DNA of 51,756 bases from Nitrospira sp. (GTDB lineage: Bacteria; Nitrospirota; Nitrospiria; Nitrospirales; Nitrospiraceae), in assembly GCA_019636945.1 (NCBI GenBank), contig JAHBWO010000009.1, positions 1-51,756 on the forward strand, given 5' to 3'. The position numbers were made by a program, and so were the translations under genes. A model generated the notes under the pieces. It was given only the letters and a program-made list of their open reading frames with translations. It made no database searches and was not told where the DNA came from. The stretch's first letter is position 1; each line of letters begins with the position of its first letter. Of the stretch, positions 6,490-35,725 are shown piece by piece.

Positions 6490-6494
6490 CGCTC

Positions 6495-7765: not shown

Positions 7766-7841
7766 CAGGTTGCAGAAGCACTCTTTTGACCAGGTAGCAC
7801 GACGCGATGACTGAGTGTCTTACCCTGATTCAAGAACACAC

Positions 7842-7966
7842 GCAGGATGCTCAAAAAGGCCGCCGGCAAGGCCGCAGTGAGCGAAGAGGCGAAGCATACT
7901 CTGCACCGTATGTTGAGTCTCTGAGCGATGCGAGAACGACGGCGGCGAGCTTTTTCAGCATCCTGC
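7842..7966. repeat. MITE-like hairpin element inserted between nqrE and nqrF
   Basis: The 125-bp element has terminal inverted repeats GCAGGATGCT(C/G)AAAAAG at both ends, further partly complementary arms, and a central CATAC-8 nt-GTATG hairpin. It contains no ORF. The nqrF ribosome-binding site begins almost immediately after its right end. Elements with this terminal sequence are, to my recollection, scattered in Nitrospira genomes, but I saw no second full copy in this window. As RNA it would fold into a long imperfect stem inside the polycistronic nqr message and could affect processing or relative NqrF levels. Confidence 0.75.
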
Positions 7967-7979
7967 TAAGAGGACGCGT

Positions 7980-17846: not shown

Positions 17847-18020
17847 GCTGTCTTCCTCATGGTGTCTTCTATTCCGGCGATGAGCCTGAACGGGAAGGTC
17901 TAGGAGGCCGGTGAAAAGAAAATGGCCGTAGGGTGATCGGTTCGTTGAGACCGATTGCAGTACAAGCCAACCAAGCGGCTTCGACGAGATGTCGAGCGCT
18001 GGTTGGCTTTTGTGTTTTTG
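17847..18020 (+). ncRNA. Structured leader or small RNA ending in a terminator
   Basis: Between the promoter and the coding start lie several possible hairpins (for example GGCCGG/CCGGCG combinations and ATCGGT-8 nt-ACCGAT near 17936-17955), then a full intrinsic terminator. The layout of promoter, folded region, terminator and gene is that of a riboswitch or attenuator, or of an independent sRNA. I could not match it to a known riboswitch class; fluoride and cobalamin motifs were tried by eye and did not fit. Confidence 0.4.
17964..18020 (+). terminator. Intrinsic terminator/attenuator 74 bp before the carbonic-anhydrase-like gene
   Basis: The outer stem AAGCCAACC pairs with GGTTGGCTT, extended inward by AGCG/CGCT and TCGAC/GTCGA with small bulges. 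It is directly followed by TTTTGTGTTTTT. This is the strongest terminator seen in the window. It is oriented so that it would cut off transcription of the downstream gene unless antiterminated. Confidence 0.75.
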
Positions 18021-18093
18021 GGAGTCAACCATTCCATCAGCAGGAATGCTGCTGGTTCAGTATGACGGCCCTGATCACAGAGGAATCATTGAA

Positions 18094-19191
18094 ATGAGTA
18101 CTTCATCTATACCGCAACCCTCCCCGGATAGTTCGCTCATACGCAAGCTACCCATTCGAGAACGGATCGACTGGTTGATAGAGCATGCCAAGCACTATGC
18201 CCAGGTGTACCAGAGTCCGGAATCCTTTCTGGCGCGCGAGCGGTACAGCGCCAAACACGAAACCGCCATCATCGCGCTCAAGTGCATGGATGGACGCCTC
18301 AATCTGTCCCTGGCCACCAATACTCCCGCCGGGATTATCCAGCCGCTCCGCAATATCGGCGGACGCTTCGACTTAGGTTGGCCGTACTTCGGAGAACTCC
18401 TGACAGCGGAGGTTGAGCGGATGGTCAGACATGGCCGTCGTACGCTGATCCTCATCAATTACCACTTTTCCAAGGGCGATCAACAACGTGGCTGTGCCGG
18501 TTGGGGGTACAACACCGATGCGGCCCGTGAGCATGCAATTCGAATAAAGCGGCAAGTCGAAGAAGTCTTCGGCACAGTCCACGGAACAGTCTATCCCTTG
18601 GTCTGTGGATTCGAAACCGATAAAGAGGCCCTCGTTCTTCATGGAAGCAACCATCGGGAGACCTTGGATCTCGAGACCGCGTCCGCTAAAGATCTCGCGT
18701 CCTTGCCTTCCACATTGTCCCGGCTGTACCCGGACATGCCCGAAGAAATGGAAAAGGATCTCTTGCCGCTGGTACAGGGCAATATCGCCCATATGAAGGA
18801 TCTCAGGAAAAGCGACCACTCACTGGAGATCGTTCACCATGAGTGGATGATCGGCGTCGGACGAGGGTTCCATTGGCTCCACATGCCGAACCTCGCGTTG
18901 ATCATCGGTCCCTACAGCCCGGACCTTGCCGACCCTCTCAGCAAGGCCGGCGGGATCATTGCGGCCAATATGCAACACGACCGCATTCCAGATGACGGCT
19001 TTCTGTTACTTTCCTTGGCACCCTACCACGACGTGGGGGTCGACCGCGCACGGGCTACGCTCAAGAGCCACTTCATGGCCGATTTTGCCGCCCATATCAT
19101 CCGTTCCGACCATCCCAAGATCGCAGACAAGATCAACATCCGCAAAGCCGTCCTGTCCTGGCACACGCGGGCGCTGGAGCTGATTGCGTGA
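18094..19191 (+). CDS. Divergent beta-class-like (CsoSCA-like) carbonic anhydrase
   Basis: This 365-residue protein has the beta-carbonic-anhydrase signature Cys64-Met-Asp66-Gly-Arg68 and, further on, His124 and Cys134 in a His-x9-Cys arrangement. Together Cys64/His124/Cys134 would bind zinc, with Asp66-Arg68 as the gating dyad. The long His-Cys spacing and overall length resemble carboxysomal-shell carbonic anhydrases rather than classic 200-residue beta enzymes. It probably interconverts CO2 and bicarbonate. The ATG at 18094 was chosen for AGAGGA 9 nt upstream; an upstream ATG at 17989 overlaps the terminator stem. It converges on the SulP/DAB operon. No signal peptide was seen, so it is likely cytoplasmic. 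Confidence 0.72.
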   Translation: MSTSSIPQPSPDSSLIRKLPIRERIDWLIEHAKHYAQVYQSPESFLARERYSAKHETAIIALKCMDGRLNLSLATNTPAGIIQPLRNIGGRFDLGWPYFGELLTAEVERMVRHGRRTLILINYHFSKGDQQRGCAGWGYNTDAAREHAIRIKRQVEEVFGTVHGTVYPLVCGFETDKEALVLHGSNHRETLDLETASAKDLASLPSTLSRLYPDMPEEMEKDLLPLVQGNIAHMKDLRKSDHSLEIVHHEWMIGVGRGFHWLHMPNLALIIGPYSPDLADPLSKAGGIIAANMQHDRIPDDGFLLLSLAPYHDVGVDRARATLKSHFMADFAAHIIRSDHPKIADKINIRKAVLSWHTRALELIA

Positions 19192-19709: not shown

Positions 19710-20534
19710 TCAACGCACGACGAGGACGGAGCGGTCGGCCCGATGCACGATCTCCTCTGAGACGCTACCCATCAAGAAGCGACGAACGCCTGTTCGCCCA
19801 TGCGAACCGACCACAATGAGGTCGTAACCCTTTCCCACCTCGCAAATCAACTCAATGGGATCACCGCCGCGCACATCCGCAGAAGCCGTGAACCGTGGAC
19901 CATTCAAGGCCTTGACTGTCTCATCCACGCTCTGCCTGGCCTTGAGAGTACGCTCCTCGTGCGCCACATCCTGTTCGACCATCCCATGCTCGCTGGTGAC
20001 CGGAGGGGAAGACACCACGGAAAGAACCGTGAGGGATACGGGGTTCTTGAACGGATGCGCGGTCAGCCACGCCTGTAACCGGGCGGCGTCCTCCGAACCT
20101 TCTACAGCCAGGAGGACCTTGGAAACCGGACGAGCAGCTCCTTTCACGATCAACGTCGGTACCGTTGAATGGGTGAGGACGCGGTGCGAGACGCTGCCGA
20201 TAAACACCTCCGTCAGCCTGGCCAAATCGCGGGTGCCCATGACGATGAGGTCGGCGTTCACCGTAGCGCCGGTGTCGAGAATAAAGGAGGATGGATCTTG
20301 AGCGTCGCACAGCGTACGGATGGAAGGAATCTCGGTTGAGAGCAGAGCGCGGCATTCTTCGATGTGCCGACGACCAGACTCCATTGCCAAGTCACGGAAC
20401 CTGCCGTATTCTTGCATGGGTTCCATCTTGGCCCCATGGGCAAGCACCACTTCATCTAGCTGGTACAGTAACCCGATTTGGTTGACTGCGGGAAGGGTTT
20501 CTCTCGCCGCCCCCACGCCAAGTACGACACGCAT
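19710..20534 (-). CDS. Universal stress protein, two UspA domains
   Basis: Two tandem UspA domains span about residues 1-137 and 140-274. The second keeps the ATP-binding pattern Val-Gly-Ser-His-Gly-Arg-Thr-Gly-(9)-Gly-Ser-Val-Ser; the first has Met-Gly-Thr-Arg-Asp and Gly-Ser-Val-Ser-His. Such proteins bind nucleotides and modulate partner proteins. The start is the second of two adjacent ATGs (20534); GGGGGAG lies just upstream. It is the last gene of the minus-strand carbon-uptake operon, 100 bp after the SulP gene, which suggests a regulatory link with transport. Confidence 0.9.
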   Translation of the reverse strand: MRVVLGVGAARETLPAVNQIGLLYQLDEVVLAHGAKMEPMQEYGRFRDLAMESGRRHIEECRALLSTEIPSIRTLCDAQDPSSFILDTGATVNADLIVMGTRDLARLTEVFIGSVSHRVLTHSTVPTLIVKGAARPVSKVLLAVEGSEDAARLQAWLTAHPFKNPVSLTVLSVVSSPPVTSEHGMVEQDVAHEERTLKARQSVDETVKALNGPRFTASADVRGGDPIELICEVGKGYDLIVVGSHGRTGVRRFLMGSVSEEIVHRADRSVLVVR

Positions 20535-20637
20535 CATGGACTCCCCCTTCTGTTGGAGAACTGGAGCTGTGCCCCTCCAAAGAGAATATGACGCTCAACC
20601 ACGGTAGGTGAACGTCACTCTCCGGTCATGTTCTCCG

Positions 20638-22230
20638 TTATCCTCGCACCAGAGCCGACACGTCACTGTGCGAGGTAGGCCTGAGGCCCTCCTTGCCGAC
20701 GGTCGTCACGCTGCCGCCCGTTAGGGCGTATTCACCATTAAAAAGGTGGAATCGTTCATTCACCGTGTGGTCCATGTAGCTCACTCCGCTGTAGTCGATC
20801 GCCAGTTTCTTGCCGGGCGGGAGCTTGTCCAGTTGGTCGCGCATCGACACGAAATTCATGAAGCCGTGCGCGCCCTTGAGCTTCAGGATCAAGGCGTCGC
20901 CCCGTTCTTCCACAACGGCATCGGCTTTCGGCGAACGGACACCGCGTATGGCATTGGTCACCACCGCGATCACAAAACCGATAATAACACCCCACAGCAG
21001 ATCTACTGCCACCACGATAATGGTCGTGATCGCCATGTAGGCCACTTCCTCCTTACCGATGTGCGCGGCATGGATGAATTCTTTGGGGTGTGCCAGACGG
21101 AAGCCGATGAACACCAGCATGCCGGCCAACGCCGCCAGGGGAATCATGTTGAGGACACCAGGGAAGAGTGCGACAGCGAGAAGAAGGAAGAGTCCATGGA
21201 AGAAGTTGGACCAGCGGGTCCGAGCTCCGTTCATGATGTTCGCCGAGCTACGCACCACTTCCGCGATCATCGGCAGCCCACCGATAAACGAGGACAACGC
21301 ATTGGTTGTGCCTTTGCTGAGCAGCTCCCGATTCATGTTGGACCGACGCTTCCAGGGATCCATCTGATCCATAGCGGCGGCGGTCAACAGAGACTCAAGA
21401 CTGGCGACGAGCGTATAGGTCACGACGAATTTCCAGAACACGCCTGTCCCGGCCATGCCCCAGTCAGGGCCCTGAAAAGAACCCATAAAATCCAGCGGTA
21501 CCTTGACGAGAAACTCCGGACCGATGTTGAGCATTTGAGCCAGAGGCACCGTGACCAGGATGACCGCCATCGGTGCGGGCATCAATTTACCGATCTTTCC
21601 CAGATACGGCCACGCGATCATGATGGCCAGACTCAGTCCGCCGATCATGGCCACGCTGGGAACCAGATTGGCGAAGCTGGAGGGAATCGCCAAGATCGTC
21701 GGAATCATCTTGCCCGAGAAGGTCACGCCCAGCAATGAATGGATCTGCTTGGACATAATGATGATCCCGATGCCAGCCAACATGCCGTGCACGACGTTCA
21801 ACGGAAACATGTTCGTGAGCTTCCCCAGTTTGGCCAACCCCATAAGGATCTGGAGACCACCGCAGATCACACCGACGGCCAGTGCATATCGGAAGCCTGC
21901 CTCGACATTCACCGTGCCATCGGGCATGGCACCCATCGCTTGTACCGCGCCATAGACAATGGCAATCAGACCCGCAGCTGCGCCGTTAATGGTGACATAG
22001 GAACCTCCCAGGAGAGAGCCCAGGATGCCGCCAATGAAGCCGGCAATGACTCCGGCAATGGGCGGCGCTCCGCTGGCAATCGCAATGCCCAGACTCAAGG
22101 GCAGCGCGATGAGGAAGAGAATAAAGCCGGACATCACATCGGTTTTGGCGTTCTGTGTGAGCCCGGGAAAATAATCAAGAGGAGCAGGTCCGGCGTCCTG
22201 GACCTTCGCGACATCTTTTTCTGACGACAT
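20638..22230 (-). CDS. SulP-family anion transporter with STAS domain (likely bicarbonate)
   Basis: This 530-residue protein has a SulP transport domain (about 30-410, roughly 12-14 membrane spans; Asp-Val-Met-Ser-Gly-Phe at the start, Gly-Gly-Leu-Pro-Met-Ile-Ala-Glu-Val-Val-Arg-Ser-Ser-Ala-Asn in the core). A C-terminal STAS domain follows (about 435-520: Leu-Ala-Ile-Asp-Tyr-Ser-Gly-Val-Ser-Tyr-Met-Asp). SulP proteins carry sulfate, bicarbonate or dicarboxylates, often with Na+ or H+. Its place between USP genes and downstream of dabAB, and opposite a carbonic anhydrase, points to bicarbonate (BicA-like). This substrate is an inference. An AGAGGGA ribosome-binding site precedes the ATG. Confidence 0.88.
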   Translation of the reverse strand: MSSEKDVAKVQDAGPAPLDYFPGLTQNAKTDVMSGFILFLIALPLSLGIAIASGAPPIAGVIAGFIGGILGSLLGGSYVTINGAAAGLIAIVYGAVQAMGAMPDGTVNVEAGFRYALAVGVICGGLQILMGLAKLGKLTNMFPLNVVHGMLAGIGIIIMSKQIHSLLGVTFSGKMIPTILAIPSSFANLVPSVAMIGGLSLAIMIAWPYLGKIGKLMPAPMAVILVTVPLAQMLNIGPEFLVKVPLDFMGSFQGPDWGMAGTGVFWKFVVTYTLVASLESLLTAAAMDQMDPWKRRSNMNRELLSKGTTNALSSFIGGLPMIAEVVRSSANIMNGARTRWSNFFHGLFLLLAVALFPGVLNMIPLAALAGMLVFIGFRLAHPKEFIHAAHIGKEEVAYMAITTIIVVAVDLLWGVIIGFVIAVVTNAIRGVRSPKADAVVEERGDALILKLKGAHGFMNFVSMRDQLDKLPPGKKLAIDYSGVSYMDHTVNERFHLFNGEYALTGGSVTTVGKEGLRPTSHSDVSALVRG

Positions 22231-22386: not shown

Positions 22387-23286
22387 TTATCCGATGACCA
22401 GGACGGGGACGGCGACACCGTGCAGGACTTTCTGTGTGACGCTCCCGTAGATGAACCGGGCTTCACTCTGAAACCCGTAGGCCCCCACAATCACGAGATC
22501 CAGTTGGGTCGATTCCTTGACGATGACCTCAGGCGGATCACCAGTGGCAACGTGACCATGTGCCTTGTAGCGCCCGGCTGCAGGGGCCTGGGCAGGCAGC
22601 GCACTGAGCTTTGCAGCGACGGTATCCACAAGGTTTTGTCCCCACCGCACCGAATCCTCATGCAAATTCTCATGAAAGCGATCATGATTGGCCAATGAGG
22701 TATCCTCGCGGTACGCCTTGAGCGTCGGCACCACATGCAGCACGGTCATCTCGACCGGGTCGTGAAAGGGGTTGGCCAAGAGCCAGCGCTGGATTTGCGC
22801 CGCGTCGTCGATCCCATTCACGGCGACCAACACGCGACGGATCTGTTCCGGCACCTGTTTGACGACCAGCGTTGAGCAGGGGGCATGGCTGGCGATCCGG
22901 TGAGAGACGCTGCCGACGGTGAACTCTCGCTCTTCGCTGCTGAGTTCGCGCGAGCCGGTGACGATCAAGTCGGCCGCCTCCATCTGCGCCGTGTTGATGA
23001 TCACGCGCGCCGCGTTCCCCAGTTCGCATACCTGCTTGACCACGAGGTTCAATTCAGTAGGGACGGATTTCGCCGCTTGCGCCAGGATTTTCTGCCCCGA
23101 GTCCAGCAGGGGGCGCAGCTCTTCCGGAACCGTGCCTCGACCAGCTGGTCCCGTAGCCGGATACTGCGCAAGCCCGTGGTCGACCGCATGCACCAGCGTG
23201 AGCTCAATCGGAGCGTAGAGTCGAGTGACGGCCTGTACCAGCTTGAATGTCGGATCAGATCGATCGACTGCCACGACGACACGCAT
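22387..23286 (-). CDS. Universal stress protein, two UspA domains (upstream paralogue)
   Basis: 299 residues with two UspA domains. The first has Val-Thr-Gly-Ser-Arg-Glu-Leu and Gly-Ser-Val-Ser-His-Arg-Ile; the second has Val-Gly-Ala-Tyr-Gly-Phe and Gly-Ser-Val-Thr-Gln-Lys-Val. The exact Gly-2x-Gly ATP signature is weakened in both domains, so nucleotide binding is uncertain. AAAGGAG is 7 nt before the ATG. It starts 31 nt after the NuoM-like gene, so it is part of the same operon. It is a paralogue of the gene at 19710-20534. Confidence 0.9.
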   Translation of the reverse strand: MRVVVAVDRSDPTFKLVQAVTRLYAPIELTLVHAVDHGLAQYPATGPAGRGTVPEELRPLLDSGQKILAQAAKSVPTELNLVVKQVCELGNAARVIINTAQMEAADLIVTGSRELSSEEREFTVGSVSHRIASHAPCSTLVVKQVPEQIRRVLVAVNGIDDAAQIQRWLLANPFHDPVEMTVLHVVPTLKAYREDTSLANHDRFHENLHEDSVRWGQNLVDTVAAKLSALPAQAPAAGRYKAHGHVATGDPPEVIVKESTQLDLVIVGAYGFQSEARFIYGSVTQKVLHGVAVPVLVIG

Positions 23287-23317: not shown

Positions 23318-24859
23318 TCATGGCGCGATGAACAGGGTCAGGATCCGAAGCGGCTGCACCTGCGCGAAGTGCTGCGCGAGGGTAGTGACACTCACCTGCA
23401 TCAGATCCAGCATAAATGCCGGGTAGAGACCGATGCCAAACACCGCCACGGCCAACGGAATTACGCATGCGACCTCACGGCGATTCAGATCGTGCAAGGC
23501 GGCGCTCTGAGGGGAGACAGAGCCCAGCACCAGCCGTTGAATCATCCCGAGCATGTAGGCGACTCCCAACACAATCCCCACCAGCACAAGGAGGACCATG
23601 AGGTAACTATGAGACACGGTTCCGACCAGGACAAGAAACTCGCCGATGAAATTGCCGGTTCCCGGTAATCCGAACGACGCCACGGTGAAGAGGCTCAAAA
23701 CCACTGCAAATCTCGGCATCACCCGATACAGCCCCCCGTAGTTGTTGATCGTCCGGTCATGCGTGCGGTCGTACAACATCCCGGCGGCGAGAAACAGGGC
23801 ACCAGTAGTAACCCCATGATTGACCATTTGGAGAATGGCGCCTTGGACGCTTTGAGTGTTGAGCCCAAAAATACCAAGGGTGACGACCCCCATATGCGCA
23901 ATGGAAGAATAGGCGATGAGTCGTTTGAAATCAGGTTGTGCGAGGGCCATGGCCCCGCCGTACAAAATAGCCAGCACGGAGAGCCACATGATGAATGGGG
24001 CGAACGATGCCGAGGCTTCGGGAAGTATAGAGAGACAGAACCGGATCAACCCGTAGGCCCCCATCTTGAGCAGGAGCCCAGAGAGGATGACGCTGCCAGC
24101 GGTGGGGGCCTCCCCATGCGCATCGGCGATCCAGCCATGAACGGGGAGCATGGGAACCTTGATGGCAAACCCCAGAAACAGCGCCAAGAAGATCCAAGAC
24201 TGGGCCTCCGGTGCATACTGGACCTGCTTCAGCGCCAGCATGTCGAAGGTGCCCCCCGCGTGGTGCAGGCCCAAAATCCCAGCGGGCAGCAGCAGGCTCC
24301 CCATAAAGTTGAACAAGAGGAATTTGATCGCCGCCTGCGTCCGGTTGGGGCCTCCCCAGAACGCAATCATGCAATACGTGGGAATCACCGTGATTTCCCA
24401 GAAAATGAAGAAGAGATAGGCATCCATAGCGGTGAACACGCCCACCACGGCCCCTTCCGCCAGGAGAATGAGCATCATGAAGGCCTTCACGTTCGTCGCG
24501 ATGCTGCGCCAGGAGCCCATGATGCACAAGGGAATGAGAAACGCGGTGAGTAGGACCAGCGGTAAACTAATACCGTCCACACCCACCGCGTATTGGGCGC
24601 CGAATGGCAGTATCCCATCAGCACGATCCACAAATTGTGGCCCACCCGCCGCATGGTCAAAGCTCACCCACAGCCCCACCGCCAGCCCCGACACAAGCAG
24701 GGCGATACTGAGCGTCACCCAGCGAATGGCCTCCCCATGGCGCACGCCTGCGCGAACAGGGAGGAGTCCGACGATCACCATCCCGATCAAAGGAGTCAAC
24801 ACAATCCAACTGACCAGATGGGGGATCCCGAACAAGTTTGCAGGACTTTCCATACTCAC
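23318..24859 (-). CDS. NuoM-like proton-translocating (antiporter-type) subunit
   Basis: This 511-513-residue membrane protein of the NuoM/MrpD type has about 14 helices. The key ion-path residues are visible: Glu in Phe-Ile-Phe-Trp-Glu-Ile and Lys in Ile-Lys-Val-Pro-Met-Leu-Pro-Val-His-Gly-Trp-Ile. A further family block is Lys-Arg-Leu-Ile-Ala-Tyr-Ser-Ser-Ile-Ala-His-Met-Gly. No other complex I genes (nuoA-K) are nearby, so it most likely acts with the NuoL-like and DUF2309 proteins. The GTG at 24859 overlaps the preceding stop by 4 nt (GTGA); ATG 24853 is the alternative start. A DAB complex normally needs one NuoL/M-like subunit; this is a second. Confidence 0.9.
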   Translation of the reverse strand: MSMESPANLFGIPHLVSWIVLTPLIGMVIVGLLPVRAGVRHGEAIRWVTLSIALLVSGLAVGLWVSFDHAAGGPQFVDRADGILPFGAQYAVGVDGISLPLVLLTAFLIPLCIMGSWRSIATNVKAFMMLILLAEGAVVGVFTAMDAYLFFIFWEITVIPTYCMIAFWGGPNRTQAAIKFLLFNFMGSLLLPAGILGLHHAGGTFDMLALKQVQYAPEAQSWIFLALFLGFAIKVPMLPVHGWIADAHGEAPTAGSVILSGLLLKMGAYGLIRFCLSILPEASASFAPFIMWLSVLAILYGGAMALAQPDFKRLIAYSSIAHMGVVTLGIFGLNTQSVQGAILQMVNHGVTTGALFLAAGMLYDRTHDRTINNYGGLYRVMPRFAVVLSLFTVASFGLPGTGNFIGEFLVLVGTVSHSYLMVLLVLVGIVLGVAYMLGMIQRLVLGSVSPQSAALHDLNRREVACVIPLAVAVFGIGLYPAFMLDLMQVSVTTLAQHFAQVQPLRILTLFIAP

Positions 24860-26841
24860 CCTAAGTAATGAAACTCGATTTCCTCGGCTACCACCAGCAA
24901 GAGCATAACAAACAACAAAAACATCAAAAGAACATACGAGACCAAAGGTTCACTGGACTTCTTGAGGGTAACGACTTTCGCGAGTCCCGTTGCCATTCCG
25001 AGCGAGGCGGCGGCAATCCCGTTGGCAGGCCGATCGATAAAGCGCACATCCACACCTTTCCACAGCGCTGAAGCCAACCCTAAGGTAGGACGAACAATCA
25101 GAGCTGCGTACACCTCATCGAAATACCCTCTATTCAAAAGAAATACGTAGATGTGCTTTTTGCGCTCCGACCACCAGGCCGAGGGATGGAACGGAAAAGC
25201 ATGGAAATAGAACGCCGTGGCCCATCCGGCTATCGCGGCCCCGACACCAATAAACAGACTGACGGGGGACCAGCCGGCAAGCGAAATCCTCGCCAGCGCT
25301 TCGACTCCCTCATGGTGTACCGGAGAGATAAATTCGAGAAAGTCACCCCAGATCAGCAGACGGAGCAGGGCGAGCCCTGCCGTGATGGGAATGAGTCCCA
25401 GGAGCAGCGATGCCGAAAACAGCTGCGGACGCATCATCCCCGGTTGAAATCCCTCAGACCAGTCAACACGACCGGATGGCGTGAAAATCTCCAAGGTCCC
25501 CTGGAACAAGTAGAATGCGACGAAAAACGTCGTGGCCAGCGCCGTGATCCAGAAGGCCACCCGTGCATGATCGACGTGCGACAGTTCCCACAACTGTTCG
25601 TAGGGTCCCCAGAAAATGACGATCGGTGGAATCACCGCCATGATCAGGGCGCCGACGTACAGGCTGACGTATTGCCGTGACACTCTGGTTCGTGGTTGGT
25701 GCCCATGTCCGGCGTGGTCGCCATGGTGGGCTCCCCCGATATACTGAAGGGCGCTGCCTGCGGAGAGAAACAGAAAACTCTTCATGGCGCCATGGGTGAG
25801 GAGGTGAAAGATGGCGGCGCCATAGGCGCCGACGCCGCAGGCCATCACCATGAAGCCAAGTTGGCTGATCGTTGAGTAGGCCAGAATGCGCTTGATGTCG
25901 AATGCCGTGAGGGCGACCATGGCGGCAAAGAGGGCGGTTAAGCCGCCGATGACCGCCACCACGTTCATGATGGCCGGAGTCAGCACATACAGCGGCGCCA
26001 TGCGGATCAGGAGGTACACGCCCGCGTTGACCATGGTCGCGGCATGGATCAGTGCGGAGATCGGAGTCGGGGCTTCCATTGCAAAGGGCAGCCAGACGTG
26101 GAGCGGAATCTGCGCGGACTTGCCGATCGGTCCCATGAACAACAGCAACGCTATCACGGAGAGGATGGGGGCCTGCCACTCCAGGCCGAGCCATCCGAGG
26201 AGATTTACCGTCTGATCGGCATACTTCGGCGCGGTGGACAAGATCGTCTGAATGTCGAGTGTGCCGAAGGTGGCCCAGGTCAGGTAGATACCGAATACAA
26301 GGCCGATATCCGCCACCCCATTGACGAGAAAGGCTTTCATCGCGGCATCGCAGGCCGACGGACGGTGTGACCAATGGGAAATGAGCAAGTACGAACACAG
26401 CCCCATGATTTCCCAGAACATGAACAGCATGAACAGATTTGCGCCCATGACCAGCATGATCATGGCGAAGGTAAAGAGCGCGATCAGGGCGAAGAAGCGG
26501 GCGTAGCGCGGGTCCGCCTGCATGTATCGGCTGGAAAAGACATGGACCAGGCTGCTGACCCCGGTGACGAGGAACAGAATAATGACCGTGACCGCATCCA
26601 CATAGAGACCGGCTTCCACGGTCAGACTGCCTGACTTGATCAGGGCATACAACGGGATCGACCGGGCGCCCTGTTGGTACACGTCGATACAGGCCAGGAC
26701 CGAGAGGAAGAATGAGGCGAAGACCGCCGGGATGGCCAGCCGATGGCTCGACTCGCCTAACCACCGGCCGCCCAGCGCGATGGTCAGGAAGGCGGCAAAC
26801 GGAAGTCCTGGGATCAGAATGTAGGCTGCGTTTATCATCAT
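24856..26841 (-). CDS. dabB: NuoL-like membrane subunit of the DAB/MpsAB-type system
   Basis: 661 residues with about 16 helices. It has the NuoL-type Glu (Phe-Met-Phe-Trp-Glu-Ile-Met-Gly-Leu-Cys-Ser-Tyr) and Lys (Gly-Lys-Ser-Ala-Gln-Ile-Pro-Leu-His-Val-Trp-Leu), Ala-Pro-Thr-Pro-Ile-Ser-Ala-Leu-Ile-His-Ala-Ala-Thr-Met and an unusual His-rich cytoplasmic or periplasmic loop (about 370-385). It would conduct H+ or Na+ to power DabA. The ATG at 26841 overlaps the dabA stop (ATGA), a strong sign of coupling; an upstream in-frame start at 26934 lies inside dabA. The direct adjacency to DUF2309 defines the DabAB pair. Confidence 0.9.
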   Translation of the reverse strand: MMINAAYILIPGLPFAAFLTIALGGRWLGESSHRLAIPAVFASFFLSVLACIDVYQQGARSIPLYALIKSGSLTVEAGLYVDAVTVIILFLVTGVSSLVHVFSSRYMQADPRYARFFALIALFTFAMIMLVMGANLFMLFMFWEIMGLCSYLLISHWSHRPSACDAAMKAFLVNGVADIGLVFGIYLTWATFGTLDIQTILSTAPKYADQTVNLLGWLGLEWQAPILSVIALLLFMGPIGKSAQIPLHVWLPFAMEAPTPISALIHAATMVNAGVYLLIRMAPLYVLTPAIMNVVAVIGGLTALFAAMVALTAFDIKRILAYSTISQLGFMVMACGVGAYGAAIFHLLTHGAMKSFLFLSAGSALQYIGGAHHGDHAGHGHQPRTRVSRQYVSLYVGALIMAVIPPIVIFWGPYEQLWELSHVDHARVAFWITALATTFFVAFYLFQGTLEIFTPSGRVDWSEGFQPGMMRPQLFSASLLLGLIPITAGLALLRLLIWGDFLEFISPVHHEGVEALARISLAGWSPVSLFIGVGAAIAGWATAFYFHAFPFHPSAWWSERKKHIYVFLLNRGYFDEVYAALIVRPTLGLASALWKGVDVRFIDRPANGIAAASLGMATGLAKVVTLKKSSEPLVSYVLLMFLLFVMLLLVVAEEIEFHYLG

Positions 26842-29800
26842 GAGATCGGTGGTGAAACCGCCTTCCAGGAGCCTCCCGGCTGATACTCCGAAAACTCTCC
26901 CGTGGTGGGATGGCAGGAGACGAGATAGAGCCACTGATTGTTGAAAAAATTCTGCAGCACCACGTGGCGGGAGATGATCCGGGAGATTCGTTCTGTGTCC
27001 GCCTCGATGACGGCGAGCAGACGAAGCGGCTCATGAAACCGGCGAGCGCCCGTAGTCAGGGCTTGAAACGGAAACCCTGTTTGCAGATCGCTGTGTCTCC
27101 CGAGCATCACGCCGACTCCGCTGACGACATTGTGCAAAACCTTGGTCCCGCTCCCGTACGCCCAGTTGTCCGTCGCGGAAAAATAATACTGAAAATTGAT
27201 CATTTGGCACACGACCAGCGGGGCGGTCATGATGGCCTCCAGCGCCCGGCCGGTTTCGTCCTGGGATTGGTCGTAATTGTGGAGAAAGACCCGACCGTCA
27301 AGCTTGAGCCCTCGGGTCAGCGCCCGGCGTCCGACAATAAACGCCGCATTGCTGGAGAGGCCCCACTCCGGTCTGACCTGCGCCCAGTCACGGCTGACGT
27401 ACGAGGTATAGCGGACGGCATCCGGAGGTGCGGCCCCGCTCGGAGCCCCCGGCAATCGGCCAAGGCGCTCCCGAACGTTCAGGAGTCTTGCCGCCTCCAA
27501 GTCCTGTTGCAGCTGGCGCACATCCGGACGGTGTGACTCCGGCAATTCTTCCAGATCGAACAAGGTGACCTGGTCCGTGGTCGTATTGTGCTCACCGGCG
27601 ATGAACCACGTGTCCTCCGGGATCTCGATCCCCTGGTTCCGGAGCTCCTGGCGGACCTTCGGCTTATTGGCCAAGGCCGCCAAGACTCTGGCATTGGGTC
27701 CGCCGGGATTCCCTCCGCAGGCCCCACAGTGGTACGCGGATGCGTAAGGGTTGTTCTCTGTGGTGCTCGCATGGCCGCAGAGCAGCACGAGGCGCGCAAA
27801 CGCTTTGGTCAGACTCATGACCCGGAGTGCGTTTTCGACCACCGCCGCTTTTTCTGCCGGAGAGAACCTGCTGGCCGCGAAGCGTTCGAGCGACAGATGG
27901 TGATTGTGGGCATTGAGCCCGTACTGATATCGGAGTTCCTCCAGCACGGCATGCTCTTGCTCCACGGATAGACCGAGCCGCTCGGATGCTGTGGTCTGTC
28001 GCCTCGCGTGGCTGCCATCTTCCGGCTCCCGAATGGCGGCGAGCCGGAATTCTTCAAGGACCTCCTGTGAGAGGGTGCCCACGATATTCCCACGGTCGAT
28101 CCGTTGTTTGAGCACATCGGCGATGCAAGCGCGCTCGTTCCCGTCGATGTAAGCCTCACGCTCCTGTTCAGGGAATTTCTCCACCGGGATTTTGGTCGGG
28201 ATCGGTGGGGTGAGCCAGTGACGCAACGCCGTGCGTACCAGCTCATAGGACTTCACAAACAAGGTTTTCCCCAGCATCGCCAGTCCGAACACCAACCCGA
28301 ACAAGTCGAATGTGAGATAGGAACTCGCGGGATTCGCCTTAGCCTGGTGAAACAGGTGCCGGACGAACTGGGTCCAGCGGTCCCCGAGCAGGTAGCGCTG
28401 GACCTCAGGGTCATCAACCAACCGTGGTTCCTCCTTCACCACATATTTAGGCTTGATCAGCACAGGACAGAGGAGAAGATCTTCCTCACGATTGAGCTTC
28501 CGGTAGTCGATCGGCGTGCCGAAGAATCCGGCGAATCCGATCGTATCGTACTCGCCCTGGGCTTCCAGATGACGGCGGAACGGCTTGGAGCGGGCGTCGA
28601 TACAGAACGCGGCTTGCGCTCTCGGTCTCGGACGCTTGTGACTTGTCTCGACTGCGGTTCGCTGCCGCTCATTGATCAGCGTCGTCAGCAAGGCGTTTCG
28701 ATACTCTTGTTCATAGGCCTCGTGCCAGACAGGACGGAGCGCATCGGGCGGGAACCGATCGAGCCAGGACAGCACCGACCTGGCCTCCGCAGATGGCAGA
28801 TGCTGAAGATCCTCCGGGCGAAGTTCGAGGAATTGCGCCAGATGGAAGAGGCGCCAGACGTCCCGGCAGACCGTTTCCGTGTACGCGTCGTGCCCGTGGG
28901 CATGGGAGTCGACGGCCTCCAGATCATGGGATCGCCCCCGTTCGAGCAGATCGGGAAACGTCGGATTGATGCGCAGCTCGCTCCGACAGACTTTCTCGGC
29001 CAGCTCGGCTTCATAAAACAGACGAACGGCCAGATATTCCAGGGGATCGATTGGGTGCCGGCCCTGTTCAGGATAATCCGGGTTCTTGGCTCGCCAGCGA
29101 ATATAGCCGGCCCAGCCCGGCAACCGGGTAAGGTGCCGGCGCAGGTACTCTTCCCGTTGCCGGTCGGAGACCCGCAAGCGGTGAAGGCTCGATGCGAGGG
29201 CGTCTTCAGGGCGGTCTGGGAGCGCTTTTACCCTTCGAGCCCAGCCCGCGATCCCGAGAGTCCATCCAGCAGCTTCGCCCGGCGCGAGATCCCGCCAGGC
29301 CCGATAAAACCCATGCCCGCGTGAGGGCATCGACCAATCCGCCATGCCTTCATCCGCGAATGCGGCGCACCACTTGATCATGTGTTCGTTGATCTCTCGT
29401 TTCAGATCAGAGCCGGTGAGATCGTCGATGATCTCGGCTGCGGTGCGGATGCGCTGCTGTGCCGGTCCAGGCTCGACCTGCGCAGGTGCTCCAGCCTTGG
29501 CCGTGGTAGGGGAATGCCCGTGGCGGCCGTTCGACCCATCTTCGGAAAGATCAAGCGCCTTCAAGGCCCCGACCCACAGCGAATGGACGTAGACCGCTTC
29601 AGGGTCGCCCCCCGCCCCGTGGGACCTCAACCGATCTTTGATGGGCTGAGGAACATCAGGTCGGATCCGGTGTGTGGCGTCTTCCTCCGTGAGTTGCCAT
29701 GGCCATAATTTTTGGTCCAGCGGATCAATGCCGTACACGAAGTGAATGAGAAGGATCTCTTCCAGGTGAAGCCTCCGTTCACCGGCACGAATACTGTCCT

Positions 29801-30185
29801 GCGATGCGAGTTCCGGCACCTGTGATCGCAGGACGCTCAACAGCTCCTTCTCGGAAATCCGTCCCTCGGCGTAGCAGACTCGGTACTCCGCCGTGGACAG
29901 ATAGCCTTCTCCTCCAAGCACCTGCTTCGCTTGTGAGACGGCTTCATGAAAGGGCAAATGTTCGAACCCGATCAAGGGATTGCGATAGGCGAACGTCCGA
30001 AGCGGCCAGTTCGGAGGAATGACCTCGACCGCCTGAGAAACCAGAGCTCGAAGCTCCTCACGCTCTACCTCGTTGAGTGCAGACTGCACCCCCCTTTCCG
30101 ATTGGGCGCTTGTACCTTGTTGTTCTGAAAGCTGCTCAGGACGCACTGGGCTCTTCTTTACTCTCTCAATAAGGAGATCACACAC
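26838..30185 (-). CDS. dabA: DUF2309 protein, DabA-type inorganic-carbon uptake subunit
   Basis: DabA is a large beta-carbonic-anhydrase-like protein which, energised by DabB, hydrates CO2 one way so that bicarbonate accumulates. The zinc-site residues are present: Cys528-Ile-Asp530-Ala-Arg532, His805 and Cys820 (in Tyr-His-Cys-Gly-Ala-Cys-Gly-Gly). The His-Cys distance is 15, identical to that recalled for Halothiobacillus DabA. At 1115 residues it is much longer than the roughly 800-residue founding member; extra sequence lies before Cys528 and between Cys528 and His805. The N-terminal family block Ile-Pro-Pro-Asn-Trp-Pro-Leu is at about 56-62. The GTG start at 30185 sits within an inverted repeat and lacks a clear Shine-Dalgarno, so the exact start is uncertain. 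First gene of the operon. Confidence 0.92.
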   Translation of the reverse strand: MCDLLIERVKKSPVRPEQLSEQQGTSAQSERGVQSALNEVEREELRALVSQAVEVIPPNWPLRTFAYRNPLIGFEHLPFHEAVSQAKQVLGGEGYLSTAEYRVCYAEGRISEKELLSVLRSQVPELASQDSIRAGERRLHLEEILLIHFVYGIDPLDQKLWPWQLTEEDATHRIRPDVPQPIKDRLRSHGAGGDPEAVYVHSLWVGALKALDLSEDGSNGRHGHSPTTAKAGAPAQVEPGPAQQRIRTAAEIIDDLTGSDLKREINEHMIKWCAAFADEGMADWSMPSRGHGFYRAWRDLAPGEAAGWTLGIAGWARRVKALPDRPEDALASSLHRLRVSDRQREEYLRRHLTRLPGWAGYIRWRAKNPDYPEQGRHPIDPLEYLAVRLFYEAELAEKVCRSELRINPTFPDLLERGRSHDLEAVDSHAHGHDAYTETVCRDVWRLFHLAQFLELRPEDLQHLPSAEARSVLSWLDRFPPDALRPVWHEAYEQEYRNALLTTLINERQRTAVETSHKRPRPRAQAAFCIDARSKPFRRHLEAQGEYDTIGFAGFFGTPIDYRKLNREEDLLLCPVLIKPKYVVKEEPRLVDDPEVQRYLLGDRWTQFVRHLFHQAKANPASSYLTFDLFGLVFGLAMLGKTLFVKSYELVRTALRHWLTPPIPTKIPVEKFPEQEREAYIDGNERACIADVLKQRIDRGNIVGTLSQEVLEEFRLAAIREPEDGSHARRQTTASERLGLSVEQEHAVLEELRYQYGLNAHNHHLSLERFAASRFSPAEKAAVVENALRVMSLTKAFARLVLLCGHASTTENNPYASAYHCGACGGNPGGPNARVLAALANKPKVRQELRNQGIEIPEDTWFIAGEHNTTTDQVTLFDLEELPESHRPDVRQLQQDLEAARLLNVRERLGRLPGAPSGAAPPDAVRYTSYVSRDWAQVRPEWGLSSNAAFIVGRRALTRGLKLDGRVFLHNYDQSQDETGRALEAIMTAPLVVCQMINFQYYFSATDNWAYGSGTKVLHNVVSGVGVMLGRHSDLQTGFPFQALTTGARRFHEPLRLLAVIEADTERISRIISRHVVLQNFFNNQWLYLVSCHPTTGEFSEYQPGGSWKAVSPPIS

Positions 30186-30826: not shown

Positions 30827-31092
30827 GGTGTTCTCTTTCCAAAAAACCGCCAGAGGATTTTAAAATCTCCTCGTGAAGGAGCCTCGACGGTAGCGCGCTA
30901 AAGCGATTGCGAAAGAGCTTCATCCTGGAACTTCCTATTGTTGGGTGCATCTTGTGGCTGACCGTCGAATTCGCGTATACAAGCACACTCGACTAGTGGT
31001 CCACATTCACAGGAAATCCAGATTCATGGTGGACTGAGCGAACGTTCTGGACGTAGTAACAACAAAAGATCTATAGGTTGGGAGGTATATCG

Positions 31093-31923
31093 ATGCACAT
31101 AGGTCAATCACACGAAAAGCATATGGAGAAAGCTGCCACGGCTCAACAGAAGTCTGCTTGGTACATAGGACTGTTATTGGCCGGGATAGGTATCTGGAAC
31201 CTATCGGGGGTCGGTGTGACGCCCGCGCAGGCATATGAGCAATTGGGACCGAACACGAGATCGGATTTCCGACTCTGGACCCCGGTGTATCTGAACGTAA
31301 AACTGCCATCCAGATTCCTCGCCTACATGGAAGTCAACCCACGCATCGGCGACGATGTGACCAATATTGATCAGCTACTCCTCCGTCCGGCGATTGGGTA
31401 TCAACTGACTGACAATCTTTCGATCTGGCAAGGCTATGCCTGGGTCGGCAACTTTAACCAGACACCCACCAAATTTATACCGTCGAATTTTTTCGGAGAA
31501 AACCGGATCTTCCAGCAGGCCATCTATACACAGAAATTCGGCGACTTTAAGTTCATGAGTCGCACTAGGATGGAAGAGCGATGGATCGATCACGCCGCCG
31601 GCACCGCCCTGCGATTCCGCCAAATGCTGAAGCTGTCGTACCCCCTGCCGATCGCTCCGGACTGGGCGCTCGTGACCTACGATGAGATCTTTATAAATTT
31701 GAATTCGGTTGACACCTTTGATGAAGTCAGACGCGGTGCCAGCAAAGGACCAGGTGCCGGCATCGACCAAAACCGGTTCTTCCTCGGGGTCAATAAGTCA
31801 TTCAACCAGTACTTCAATGTCGATATCGGCTACCAAAATCAGATGCTCAATAGTCGAACGCTTCATGGCAATGCGAACTTAATCAACCACATTCTGTTAT
31901 TACAGTTTTATATCAATCTATAA
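31093..31923 (+). CDS. DUF2490 outer-membrane protein
   Basis: 276 residues, with a signal peptide ending near Pro-Ala-Gln-Ala (about residue 47). The mature part is a beta-barrel-like chain rich in aromatic, alternating segments (Asp-Phe-Arg-Leu-Trp-Thr-Pro-Val-Tyr, Arg-Phe-Arg-Gln-Met-Leu-Lys-Leu-Ser-Tyr) and a terminal Phe-Tyr-Ile-Asn-Leu, typical of an outer-membrane barrel signature. DUF2490 proteins have no firmly known function. The ATG at 31093 has GGGAGG 7 nt upstream, which decides the start over the earlier frame opening. It is probably transcribed from the sigma-54 promoter. Confidence 0.8.
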   Translation: MHIGQSHEKHMEKAATAQQKSAWYIGLLLAGIGIWNLSGVGVTPAQAYEQLGPNTRSDFRLWTPVYLNVKLPSRFLAYMEVNPRIGDDVTNIDQLLLRPAIGYQLTDNLSIWQGYAWVGNFNQTPTKFIPSNFFGENRIFQQAIYTQKFGDFKFMSRTRMEERWIDHAAGTALRFRQMLKLSYPLPIAPDWALVTYDEIFINLNSVDTFDEVRRGASKGPGAGIDQNRFFLGVNKSFNQYFNVDIGYQNQMLNSRTLHGNANLINHILLLQFYINL

Positions 31924-32390
31924 TCGTCAAGAGAGATCAGTGGACGATTGGGCTCTTCACATTCATTCGATAACGGAAGCAAGGACACGAAGCGCACTCT
32001 GCATCTAGAACAGCTGCATAGCCCGTCGGCATTTGGTCTATAACTTATGTCGCAGACCTCGAATCCGAGGGGAACTCCTCTGCGAATCTCCTGCGCCGCA
32101 AAGCTGTGTGGAGCAGGAGATAGGTCTTCGCCTCTACTTGAGCCTCGCTTCGGCATGATGATGGAATTCTCACCTCTCGCCAGAAGTGATACAAGATTTT
32201 TCTCATGACCAGCTGTGTACTAAACGGGAGCATCTTATCGACGGTGCACATATTGGAAACCTAGGATCCCGTTTGTGGTCAAATCGACGACTTCGTTCGA
32301 CCGCCAATCACACGTGTCTTGGCTTGAGCAGCCATGGGCCCTAGGGCGTGGCTGGACCGAAAATTTTGGATGATATTAGGAGGGGAATCC
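31924..32390. other. Intergenic region before the histidine kinase
   Basis: About 470 bp with no supported gene, terminator or clear promoter. Confidence 0.4.
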
Positions 32391-34334
32391 ATGCGACGGG
32401 ATAACACCTCCCTGTTCAATAATCTTCCAATTCACCACAAATTACGCACGATTTCTGCCATCCCGCTGGCCTCCCTTATCCTTTTCAGCCTCCTGACCTG
32501 GAACAACGTTCAAACGTTTTCAGAAGCTGAAGAGCGTTTGAATAATCTTTACCTTACCCAGAAGACTGCGGCTGAATATATGCGGTTGGTGGTGGATTTG
32601 GAAACCGGGTTTCGAGGATATGTCTTAACTGAGAATGAGTCTGATCTCGAGCCGTATCAGAATGCGCTGACAGACCTCCGCGTGGTCGCAAACGAGCTGA
32701 ACAACAGGCTCGTTGAAGGGCATCAGGCCGATATTCAGGAACACGAGTTCAAGAGCCTTCAAACCCTCGTGAACCAACTCATGACGGAGAAAGAAACTCT
32801 CATCCACGACATTAAAGCAGGCCACAAGCCGGTTTCCCTCCATTATATCCAAGACGGACGTGGAAGAGCGCTGATGTCACAAGTTCGGGCATTGATGGCA
32901 CGGCTCGACCAGCGTGAACGTGCCAGCACCGTGGACGGACTGTCTAGAATGAATACTGATCGCTGGTCGACGCTTCTCGCAATTTTAGGCGGTGGACTGT
33001 TCACATGCTTTCTCATCGGTTGGGGAAACTATGCTATCGCTAAATCGATTGCGGCTCCACTTGTGATCCTGTCGAAAGCCGTGAGCTCCCCATCCGACGG
33101 GTCGGTTCCCACCATTCCGGTTTTTGATCGAAAAGATGAGATCGGGGGACTCAGCAGGGTGATGCAACGGATGAATTTGCAGACGCAAAAGGCCCTTGAT
33201 GAATTGCAGCAATCCGCGAATTCGCTTCGGACGCTCAACCAAAATCTGGCGGCCTCCGAAGCCAAATACCGCAGTCTGGTGGATCATGCTCCAATCGGAA
33301 TCTTTATGACAAGAGCGAGCCAAATCCTCTTCAGTAATCGACATAACCAGTTGTTGGCCGGATTTGATCCTGACAAACAGATCGATCCGGCCAGCTTTCG
33401 TAAACGAATCCATCCAGAGGATGCCGATCGCGTGATGTTGGAGTTTTTACGAGCCATCGCGGAAAAGCGCCCCTGTGAAATGATCTTCCGCTTTGTCCAC
33501 TCCGACGGAGGCACACGCAATATCTTAAGCCGGCTCGTGCCGATCCGCGATTTGAGCACCCCTAGCCCGATGTATATCGGATTTAATATCGACATTACAG
33601 CACTACATACCCTGGAATTACATTTGAGTCGTAGTGAAAAGTTGGCGACGTTGGGGCAGGTGGCGGCCGGCATTGCCCATGAGCTCAGAAATCCGTTGGT
33701 GGGAATCGGCTCGACGGCATCGTTGTTGTTGGATGATTTCGAGTATTCTGACCCAAGACGTGCGGAAATCGAGGTGATTTTACAAGAATCCACTCGAATG
33801 GATCGGATCGTGAATCAGATTGTAGATTATGCAAGGCCGCGCGGTCTTGCACCGAATCGATTTAGATTCTCTGATCTGATCAACGACACCTTACGGGCGA
33901 TGAGTGGACCTCTACAGGGGGATAACGTAAGAATAACAACTTCTTTATCTCTGACAGATGACCATCTACATGCAGATCAGGATCAGATCAAGCAAGTACT
34001 CATCAATATCCTCAGCAACGCGATTGACGCCTCGCCTTCCGTGGACTCCGCCATAGAAATCACGGCCCATGAGGTATCCCAGCACGACAAGCCCGGTATT
34101 TCTATACGAATTCTGGATACCGGGAAAGGCATTCCACCAGACGCTTTGTCTCGCATCTTTGAGCCATTTTTTACATCTGGGAAGCGTCGCGGGACGGGGT
34201 TAGGAATGGCGATTTGCAAGAACATTGTGGAGGCCCATCATGGAGATATTTTTGTGACGAGTGAGGTTGGAAGAGGTACCACCGTGAACATATGGCTGCC
34301 TCTGTCCCAAGATCCCCAACCGGAACTGCCCTAG
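32391..34334 (+). CDS. Sensor histidine kinase (CHASE3-HAMP-PAS-HisKA-HATPase)
   Basis: 647 residues. Two membrane helices (about 19-37 and 194-216) enclose a CHASE3-like extracytoplasmic domain (Leu-Glu-Thr-Gly-Phe-Arg-Gly-Tyr-Val-Leu-Thr at 70-80). A HAMP linker, a PAS domain (about 288-405), HisKA with phospho-His430 in Ala-His-Glu-Leu-Arg-Asn-Pro-Leu, and an HATPase domain (N box Asn-Ile-Leu-Ser-Asn-Ala, G1 Asp-Thr-Gly-Lys-Gly-Ile, Gly-Thr-Gly-Leu-Gly) follow. The ATG at 32391 has AGGAGG upstream and was preferred to the frame opening at 32334. Its stop is 2 nt from the regulator's start: a coupled NtrB/NtrC-type pair. Confidence 0.93.
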   Translation: MRRDNTSLFNNLPIHHKLRTISAIPLASLILFSLLTWNNVQTFSEAEERLNNLYLTQKTAAEYMRLVVDLETGFRGYVLTENESDLEPYQNALTDLRVVANELNNRLVEGHQADIQEHEFKSLQTLVNQLMTEKETLIHDIKAGHKPVSLHYIQDGRGRALMSQVRALMARLDQRERASTVDGLSRMNTDRWSTLLAILGGGLFTCFLIGWGNYAIAKSIAAPLVILSKAVSSPSDGSVPTIPVFDRKDEIGGLSRVMQRMNLQTQKALDELQQSANSLRTLNQNLAASEAKYRSLVDHAPIGIFMTRASQILFSNRHNQLLAGFDPDKQIDPASFRKRIHPEDADRVMLEFLRAIAEKRPCEMIFRFVHSDGGTRNILSRLVPIRDLSTPSPMYIGFNIDITALHTLELHLSRSEKLATLGQVAAGIAHELRNPLVGIGSTASLLLDDFEYSDPRRAEIEVILQESTRMDRIVNQIVDYARPRGLAPNRFRFSDLINDTLRAMSGPLQGDNVRITTSLSLTDDHLHADQDQIKQVLINILSNAIDASPSVDSAIEITAHEVSQHDKPGISIRILDTGKGIPPDALSRIFEPFFTSGKRRGTGLGMAICKNIVEAHHGDIFVTSEVGRGTTVNIWLPLSQDPQPELP

Positions 34335-34336
34335 CC

Positions 34337-35725
34337 ATGCGCGCAACTATTTTTGTGACCGATGATGAGCCCTCCATCCGCGCTGCCATCGTCAAGAAGT
34401 TGGCCCGCCAAGGACATCACACCGTCGGATATGAATCCGCCGAAGCATTACTAGAGGAACTTCGACGCAATACCCCGGATCTGGTATTGCTCGATTTAAA
34501 GATGCCCGGGCTCAACGGTCTGGAGGCGTTGAAACGCGTGCGCCAACTGGCCCCTTCAGCTACCGTCATCATCATGACCGCCTATGGGACGGTCCAGAAC
34601 GCAGTCGAGGCCATGAAGATGGGCGCATATGATTTTCTCGTCAAATCCATACAGCTCGAAGAGATTGAACCGGTGATCAATCGGGCGCTTGAATTACTTC
34701 GCCTCCGAAGACGGTTCGAGGAAGAGCGTGAGCAGCTGAGCCGAAAGTATCAGCTTTCTAATTTGGAAGCCCACAGTCCTGCCATGAAGCAGTTGTTGGC
34801 ACAAATTCGCGAGGTAGCGGACAATTCTAAATCATCCGTTATGCTGCTTGGCGAAACTGGGACGGGGAAGGATTTTCTGGCCCGCGTGATTCACTATAAC
34901 GGGCCTCGGACATCGGCGCCGTTTGTCGGAGTTAACTGTACTGCCATTCCCAAAGAGCTTTTTGAAAGCGAATTGTTCGGATATGAACGAGGGGCGTTTA
35001 CCGGCGCAAATCAGCGGAAGCTGGGCCTGTTTGAGAAAGCGGACGGCGGCACACTGTTTCTGGACGAGATCGGCGACCTGGATGTGTCCATGCAGACTAA
35101 ATTGTTGCGCGTCATTCAGGAACGTTCGTTCCGACGGCTCGGAGGGACCGACGACATTGGTGTCAATTTTCGTTTGATTACGGCAACAAACCGCGAGCTC
35201 AAGAAAGATGTGGAACGCGGAATCTTCCGTGAAGACCTTTACTTTCGCCTCAACGTGGTGGCTTTTGAGATTCCTCCCTTACGAAGGCGGGTCGAAGACA
35301 TTCTACCGCTCTGTCGGCGTGCCATCGTGCGCTTTGCACATGAGTTTAACAAACCCATCCCTGAATGGGACTCAGAAACTAGTGCGTTACTGGAACGATA
35401 CCAGTATCCTGGAAACATCCGTGAACTTGAGAATATCATCGAGCGAGCGATGATTTTTTGCTCAGGTCAAACGCTGACCGACAACTATCTGCCAAGAGAA
35501 TTGCATGATCACGTCAACGCAATTACAACGTCGGTCTCACAAGGGACAGGGCCAGTGATTCGCCTCGAGATTCAGGTCGGTAGACAGACATTGGCGCAGA
35601 TTGAAGAGTCGATCATTCAAGAAACTCTGCGATTGACCCAGTTCAACAAGAGTTTGGCGGCTAGACAACTTGGACTGACTCGCTTCTCGCTGGATCGACG
35701 ATTGAAAAAGCTGGACCACAAGTGA
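34337..35725 (+). CDS. NtrC-family sigma-54-dependent response regulator
   Basis: 462 residues: receiver domain with Asp9-Asp10 and phosphoacceptor Asp53; AAA+ domain with Walker A Gly172-Glu-Thr-Gly-Thr-Gly-Lys178, the sigma-54-contacting Gly-Ala-Phe-Thr-Gly-Ala loop at 219-224 and Walker B Phe-Leu-Asp-Glu-Ile-Gly-Asp (241-247). A Fis-type helix-turn-helix is at the C-terminus (Ala-Ala-Arg-Gln-Leu-Gly-Leu-Thr-Arg-Phe-Ser-Leu). The intact loop means it can activate RpoN promoters, such as the candidate at 30813. It follows the kinase by 2 nt without its own Shine-Dalgarno, so it is translationally coupled. Confidence 0.95.
   Translation: MRATIFVTDDEPSIRAAIVKKLARQGHHTVGYESAEALLEELRRNTPDLVLLDLKMPGLNGLEALKRVRQLAPSATVIIMTAYGTVQNAVEAMKMGAYDFLVKSIQLEEIEPVINRALELLRLRRRFEEEREQLSRKYQLSNLEAHSPAMKQLLAQIREVADNSKSSVMLLGETGTGKDFLARVIHYNGPRTSAPFVGVNCTAIPKELFESELFGYERGAFTGANQRKLGLFEKADGGTLFLDEIGDLDVSMQTKLLRVIQERSFRRLGGTDDIGVNFRLITATNRELKKDVERGIFREDLYFRLNVVAFEIPPLRRRVEDILPLCRRAIVRFAHEFNKPIPEWDSETSALLERYQYPGNIRELENIIERAMIFCSGQTLTDNYLPRELHDHVNAITTSVSQGTGPVIRLEIQVGRQTLAQIEESIIQETLRLTQFNKSLAARQLGLTRFSLDRRLKKLDHK

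Follow-up and report, generated by a model that had tools for sequence, protein, structure and literature searches.

The closest described systems to the locus reported here are the DAB2/DAC complexes, represented by DabA2-DabB2 of Halothiobacillus neapolitanus and its MpsAB and YbcC-NdhF relatives. DabA2, the source of the active-site numbering used below, is a subunit of DAB2, for which a cryo-EM structure is available; Leu658 of DabA2, a DAB-specific feature, replaces the usual transition-state residue, and a finger of DabA occupies the site at which the partner subunit lacks the TM12 Lys-Asp pair (PMC13144422). Operons in which ybcC lies upstream of a nuoL homologue, together with NuoM and SulP genes, were described in 2017, and the same study proposed for ybcC/nuoL/nuoM operons that more membrane subunits would mean more ions (PMC5700660); counting ions in such operons is not a new idea. 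A separate literature deals with Mrp/Mnh loci, which have been reported with extra nuoL and nuoM genes as Na+/H+ antiporters in Ca. Nitrospira alkalitolerans (PMC7784846) and the Nitrospirales (PMC12342949), and have likewise been described as a Na+/H+ antiporter in Nitrospina gracilis (PMC3578206). The main texts of these three papers do not mention DabA, and no link between DabA and an Mrp operon was found in the open-access main texts searched.

The window analysed here, a stretch of 51,756 nucleotides from a Nitrospira genome, carries three intact open reading frames on its minus strand. These are dabA (26838-30185; PF10070, 877 bits; 1115 aa as called), which is predicted to encode a cytoplasmic CO2 hydratase subunit, a NuoL-like gene (24856-26841; NDH_I_L, 502 bits; 661 aa), whose product is the proposed DabB equivalent, and a NuoM-like gene (23318-24859; NDH_I_M, 543 bits; 513 aa) for a proposed second ion channel. 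The initial annotation had recognised a three-gene operon of the DabA type with two different antiporter-like subunits and 4-bp overlaps, and both the reading frames and the Pfam and NDH_I matches agree with it: dabA and nuoL share an ATGA at 26841-26838, and nuoL and nuoM a GTGA at 24859-24856. The nuoL start given by the ORF finder (26934, 692 aa) is too early, and the coupled ATG at 26841 yields 661 aa, the length of the relative in locus L102. Similarly, the dabA start at 30185 probably lies 13 codons early, because relatives begin at a GTG equivalent to 30146, which would leave about 1,102 aa. The window is one contig of its host genome (G000), a metagenome assembly of 4.36 Mb in 267 contigs, 88% complete, in which the dabA of the window is the only PF10070 gene. 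A RuBisCO search gave one weak match (57 bits over 169 residues); given that the same search was also positive in B. subtilis, it does not demonstrate a true RuBisCO.

The PF10070 match covers residues 49-1086 of DabA. Residues C528, D530, R532, H805 and C820 align to C351, D353, R355, H524 and C539 of DabA2 and are invariant in alignments of 19 and 38 DabA sequences, which bears out the earlier statement that the active-site residues, that is, the zinc ligands and the Asp-Arg dyad, are conserved. The codons of the zinc ligands were placed by alignment at 28602..28604 (C528, the first ligand), 27771..27773 (H805) and 27726..27728 (C820), all on the minus strand. Leu943, within a PEWGL motif, aligns to Leu658 of DabA2 and is invariant in clade A2, to which the DabA of the window belongs. 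An AlphaFold model of DabA (pLDDT 78), compared with solved folds, lies nearest to CsoSCA (Z 11.4, rmsd 5.0 over 306) and also matches the double beta-carbonic anhydrase of Porphyridium (Z 9.9), suggesting that the modelled protein adopts a double beta-carbonic anhydrase fold. A Foldseek search of the model against the PDB (entries to April 2026) returned no significant match, the beta-carbonic anhydrases being recovered only by VIA. The extra segments noted initially are real when measured against DabA2, as 277 residues separate the first Cys from the His, compared with 173 in DabA2. The description of the protein as oversized does not hold, however: DabA frames in the same order span about 850-1,540 aa, and the size of the window's DabA is therefore ordinary.

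The same model predicts helices at residues 593-617, 619-641 and 644-658. The hydrophobic helix 619-641, presumably a transmembrane finger, contains a single acid, D627 (codon 28305..28307, minus strand), which we propose as the counterpart of Glu444 in DabA2. D627 lies 99 residues from the first zinc Cys, and Glu444 lies 93 residues from it in DabA2; in phmmer and hmmsearch runs with three DabA queries the finger of DabA2 (433-481) was never aligned, and the two acids are equated by spacing. All members of clade A2 have Asp at this position, and the order's other DabA clade has Glu.

The NuoL-like subunit combines features that otherwise occur apart. Following E. coli NuoL numbering, which was verified on an alignment, Lys399-Asp400 of TM12 are replaced by P413 and Y414 (codons 25600..25605, minus strand). 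Both Lys and Asp are absent from all 47 Dab-linked NuoL proteins, where Pro, Ser or Ala and Tyr or Phe take their places, and they are likewise gone from all DabB rows aligned; the complex-I NuoL proteins of the host genome retain Ser-Lys-Asp in TM12. The TM5 Glu144 (codon 26410..26412, minus strand) is present in each of the 47 Dab-linked proteins. DabB proteins have Gln or His at this position in 10 alignable rows, with a gap in the eleventh, and the corresponding residue of DabB2 is Ile151 (PMC13144422). The long C-terminus encoded at 24862..25122 (minus strand), comprising the lateral helix and the last transmembrane helix, is missing from DabB. Helices are predicted here at residues 574-596, 606-626 and 631-660, with low confidence for the lateral-helix part, and the model as a whole (pLDDT 70) matches complex-I NuoL across residues 2-618. 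With 661 aa, Glu144 and a long C-terminus, the protein does not correspond to the short form of DabB (about 550 aa, no Glu144, short lateral helix), and the membrane part is therefore a variant rather than a typical DabB. Judged by its residues, the NuoL-like protein is a hybrid, with the TM12 loss of DabB and the TM5 Glu144 and full lateral helix of complex I. The TM5 Glu of complex I and of Mrp points to the adjacent antiporter subunit, as at the interface of MrpA TM5 and MrpD TM12 (PMC5703873). Retention of Glu144 where a NuoM partner exists, and its loss where none does, is what would be expected from a real NuoL-NuoM contact.

The lateral helix of Dab-type NuoL proteins contains a repeat of ~38 residues (LWRxVDxxxIDR...; 24964-25122 in the window), present in one copy in the window and in up to three or more elsewhere (L104, L123). 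Repeat number does not track channel number, as reduced operons have 1-3 copies and Mrp-bearing ones 0-3.

The NuoM-like protein keeps all four key residues: E155, the equivalent of Glu144, K234 and K265 are conserved in 43 of 43 sequences and E407 in 42 of them, and by this measure the subunit is an intact channel. Among Dab-type loci with room downstream, nuoM directly follows nuoL in 42 of 43, and the one exception is an ORF-calling artefact. An apparent NuoL-NuoM fusion in L157 (1,130-aa ORF) was rejected, as its N-terminal 455 residues are read out of frame. NuoM also occurs as two paralogues. Between the window and L100, DabA is 89% shared and NuoL 86%, compared with only 70% for NuoM; one paralogue is found in the window, L098 and L104, and the other in L100, L102 and L105, while both stand in tandem in L106, from a Methylococcaceae UBA1147 MAG that is possibly misbinned.

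We favour, with moderate confidence and on the strength of the sequences, the reading that DabA, NuoL and NuoM form one membrane complex, in which a CO2 hydratase driven by protons carries an additional ion channel. Such a complex would draw on an ion gradient, and on the membrane voltage, to hydrate cytoplasmic CO2 and trap it as bicarbonate. CO2 would be bound at the zinc of DabA, whose hydrophobic finger, carrying Asp627, might plug into NuoL where the TM12 Lys-Asp pair is missing, as it does in DAB2; this would make NuoL the DabB equivalent and place it at the distal end. The opposite, complex-I-like face of NuoL, with Glu144 and the lateral helix, would hold the NuoM-like subunit. Ion flow through NuoL, and probably through NuoM too, would then drive hydration in one direction and bicarbonate release, with the finger sensing this flow, as has been proposed for DAB2. 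Should NuoM provide another channel, linked to NuoL at the face that bears Glu144, more than one ion, perhaps a second, may be spent per CO2, which would allow for a steeper bicarbonate gradient.

One antiporter-like subunit is enough for all characterised DABs (PMC13144422), and the window could likewise encode an ordinary two-subunit DAB made up of DabA and the NuoL-like protein. The NuoM-like protein would then be a cation/proton antiporter, separate or in an auxiliary role, that shares no more than the transcript with them. The alternation of two NuoM paralogues among close relatives, which makes the NuoM slot look loose, would suit this arrangement. We nevertheless consider it unlikely: the NuoL-like protein retains the Glu144 face and the lateral helix that other DabB proteins have lost, NuoM follows NuoL almost without exception, and a lone NuoM antiporter corresponds to no known functional unit.

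Thirty-nine complete loci (L108, L123, L128, L150, L163 and 34 more; gene identities by Pfam) contain ten genes in identical order and on one strand, namely dabA-mrpE-F-G-(mrpA C-terminal part)-B-C-D-nuoL-nuoM. By phylum they divide into 18 Nitrospirota, 14 Nitrospinota, 4 Pseudomonadota, 2 Myxococcota and 1 Acidobacteriota, and incomplete Mrp-type loci agree with the same order. Linkage is not absolute, since the sole dabA of the complete genome G039 sits 258 kb from the mrp-nuoL-nuoM cluster. The reduced dabA-nuoL-nuoM form is seen in the window and in seven named loci (L098, L100, L102, L104, L105, L106 and L109), where the three genes still stand together in the absence of Mrp genes. It adjoins the Mrp-bearing Nitrospira locus L123 in the DabA tree (97, starred) and in the NuoL tree (94), which favours its nesting within the Mrp form; in the NuoM tree the reduced and Mrp-bearing forms are sisters. 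In an AU test of the reduced form nested in the Mrp form against the alternative, the alternative was not rejected (p 0.163). In our reading the operon of the window has a common ancestor with the ten-gene, Mrp-bearing operon and probably represents a reduced version of it. Rather tentatively, the ten-gene system could assemble into one giant complex, its CO2 hydratase mounted at the distal end of a membrane arm of the Mrp/complex-I kind that holds as many as three ion channels. On this view, what has been called a 'salt antiporter' in nitrite-oxidising Nitrospira and Nitrospina would serve to concentrate carbon, as a counterpart of cyanobacterial NDH-1MS that works without redox chemistry.

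These relatives also lend themselves to another interpretation. With mrpEFG, the C-terminal part of mrpA and mrpB, C and D lying between dabA and nuoL, and with related loci named Na+/H+ antiporters in the three papers cited above, NuoL and NuoM might be parts of an Mrp-type Na+/H+ antiporter for salt and pH homeostasis, and DabA a neighbour or regulator. We give this only a slim chance. The window contains no Mrp genes and so lacks a full MrpA-G set; MbhD was not found in the host genome, in the reduced-operon genomes G002, G037, G251, G270 and G282, or in the close relatives G004, G015 and G040, several of these genomes being incomplete, and yet dabA, nuoL and nuoM persist together. Moreover, the TM12 loss in NuoL fits a DabB and is unexpected in an antiporter subunit. 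A DabA-NuoL-NuoM hydratase remains the reading that we prefer.

The phylogenies separate both membrane subunits from complex I. The Dab NuoM proteins form a clade of 46 rows (SH-aLRT 100) and the Dab NuoL proteins a clade of 48 rows (SH-aLRT 99), with their complex-I homologues outside; a clustering of the NuoM-like protein within complex I, against which the initial annotation had proposed to check, did not occur. All twelve PF00361 matches in the genome were assigned either to the window pair or to complex-I sets on C241 (L, M, M, N fragment), C195 (L, M, N) and C229/C98 (L; M, N), and every one of these sets has its own L and M. The window pair neither falls inside the complex-I clades nor lies beside other nuo genes. 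The separate clades, the complete complex-I sets and the constancy of the nuoL-nuoM order together support, at the level of sequence, an assignment of both proteins to DabA rather than to complex I. That complex I, to whose NuoL and NuoM their sequence similarity is highest, employs them as spare or alternative subunits at its distal end is hardly credible in view of these well-supported clades and self-sufficient sets, and of the loss of a TM12 Lys-Asp pair that is essential in complex I.

For the DabA-NuoL-NuoM complex we infer H+ as the default ion, because DAB2 needs no sodium (PMC13144422). The Na+-NQR cluster reported near the operon is present at 3100-9200, with nqrA, B, D, E and F recognised by Pfam, and is followed by a CitMHS-family transporter gene at 10757-12214. 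The use of Na+ that had been suggested from it is unsupported, since it rests solely on this proximity, with no Mrp genes in the window and no MbhD found in the genome; it is conceivable only for the Mrp-bearing relatives.

Further genes accompany the operon. On the minus strand, a universal stress protein gene (22387..23286; PF00582) starts 32 bp past nuoM and is followed by a gene for a BicA-like transporter of the SulP family (20638..22230; PF00916) and by a second universal stress protein gene of the same run (19710..20537; PF00582), which is also found in L102 and L105. The operon and this downstream run recur in the Nitrospira relatives L100, L102 and L105, and 20 of 51 relatives have a SulP gene upstream of dabA; the SulP protein scores 126 bits against the BicA model, far below the cut-off of 880. 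The gene at 17989-19191 encodes a carbonic-anhydrase-like protein that resembles CsoSCA weakly, contains a Cys-x-Asp-x-Arg, His, Cys motif and lacks an obvious signal peptide, and its relatives adjoin dabA in L100, L101 and L103; a cytoplasmic carbonic anhydrase would counteract a CO2 trap. Divergent from dabA lies a gene for a DUF2490 outer-membrane-type protein (31078-31923), with related genes near dabA in L048, L061, L063, L101 and L107. A CHASE3/PAS histidine kinase and an NtrC-type sigma-54 regulator, encoded about 2 kb upstream of the operon (32334-35725), could control it.

DabA proteins occur in other settings as well. A different Nitrospira DAB locus (L062, L078, L079) contains two DabB-like genes, a DabA of about 1,080-1,140 aa and a degenerate PF00361 protein of about 440 aa without the key charged residues. 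The DabA-like proteins of L061, L063 and L072 reach about 1,440-1,460 aa and contain a large insertion, and no antiporter-like gene lies in the surrounding 15-16 kb.

If our reading is correct, nitrite oxidisers, to which a large share of the second nitrification step is due, pay for CO2 capture with ion gradients and use a machine that has more than one channel. DAB carbonic anhydrases, complex I and Mrp antiporters would then belong to a single evolutionary series, and the present annotation of a locus as a salt-tolerance system would need revision. These systems would also amount to a natural experiment: the same CO2 enzyme comes with a single channel subunit in DabB systems, with two in the window and with three in the Mrp form, making the ion cost per CO2 measurable.

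With DAB2/DAC, the window shares the DabA family, the zinc ligands, the Asp-Arg dyad, the DAB-specific Leu and a NuoL-family partner (PF00361) without the TM12 Lys-Asp pair. It differs from DAB2/DAC in having a full-length, NuoL-like partner that retains Glu144 and the lateral helix, NuoM as a further channel subunit, Asp rather than Glu as the presumed finger acid placed by spacing, and dabA as the first gene. The COGNAT 'clade C' ybcC operons resemble the window in that ybcC/dabA precedes nuoL, often with a COG1008 NuoM and a COG0659 SulP; the study that defined them was unable to say what DabA does, and neither the NuoM paralogues nor the TM12 loss nor the Mrp genes are described in its main text (PMC5700660). 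L and M genes of this kind also accompany Mrp genes in the Mrp/Mnh loci of Nitrospira and Nitrospina; the Mrp part is lacking from the window, whose relatives do carry loci of this make-up. A further parallel is provided by cyanobacterial NDH-1MS (CupA-NdhF3-NdhD3), in which a CO2-hydrating protein sits on a distal NuoL-type subunit adjoining a NuoM-type subunit and which is driven by ferredoxin via the complex-I core. The enzyme is unrelated and the operon of the window contains no redox genes, but the layout of the complex proposed here would be similar.
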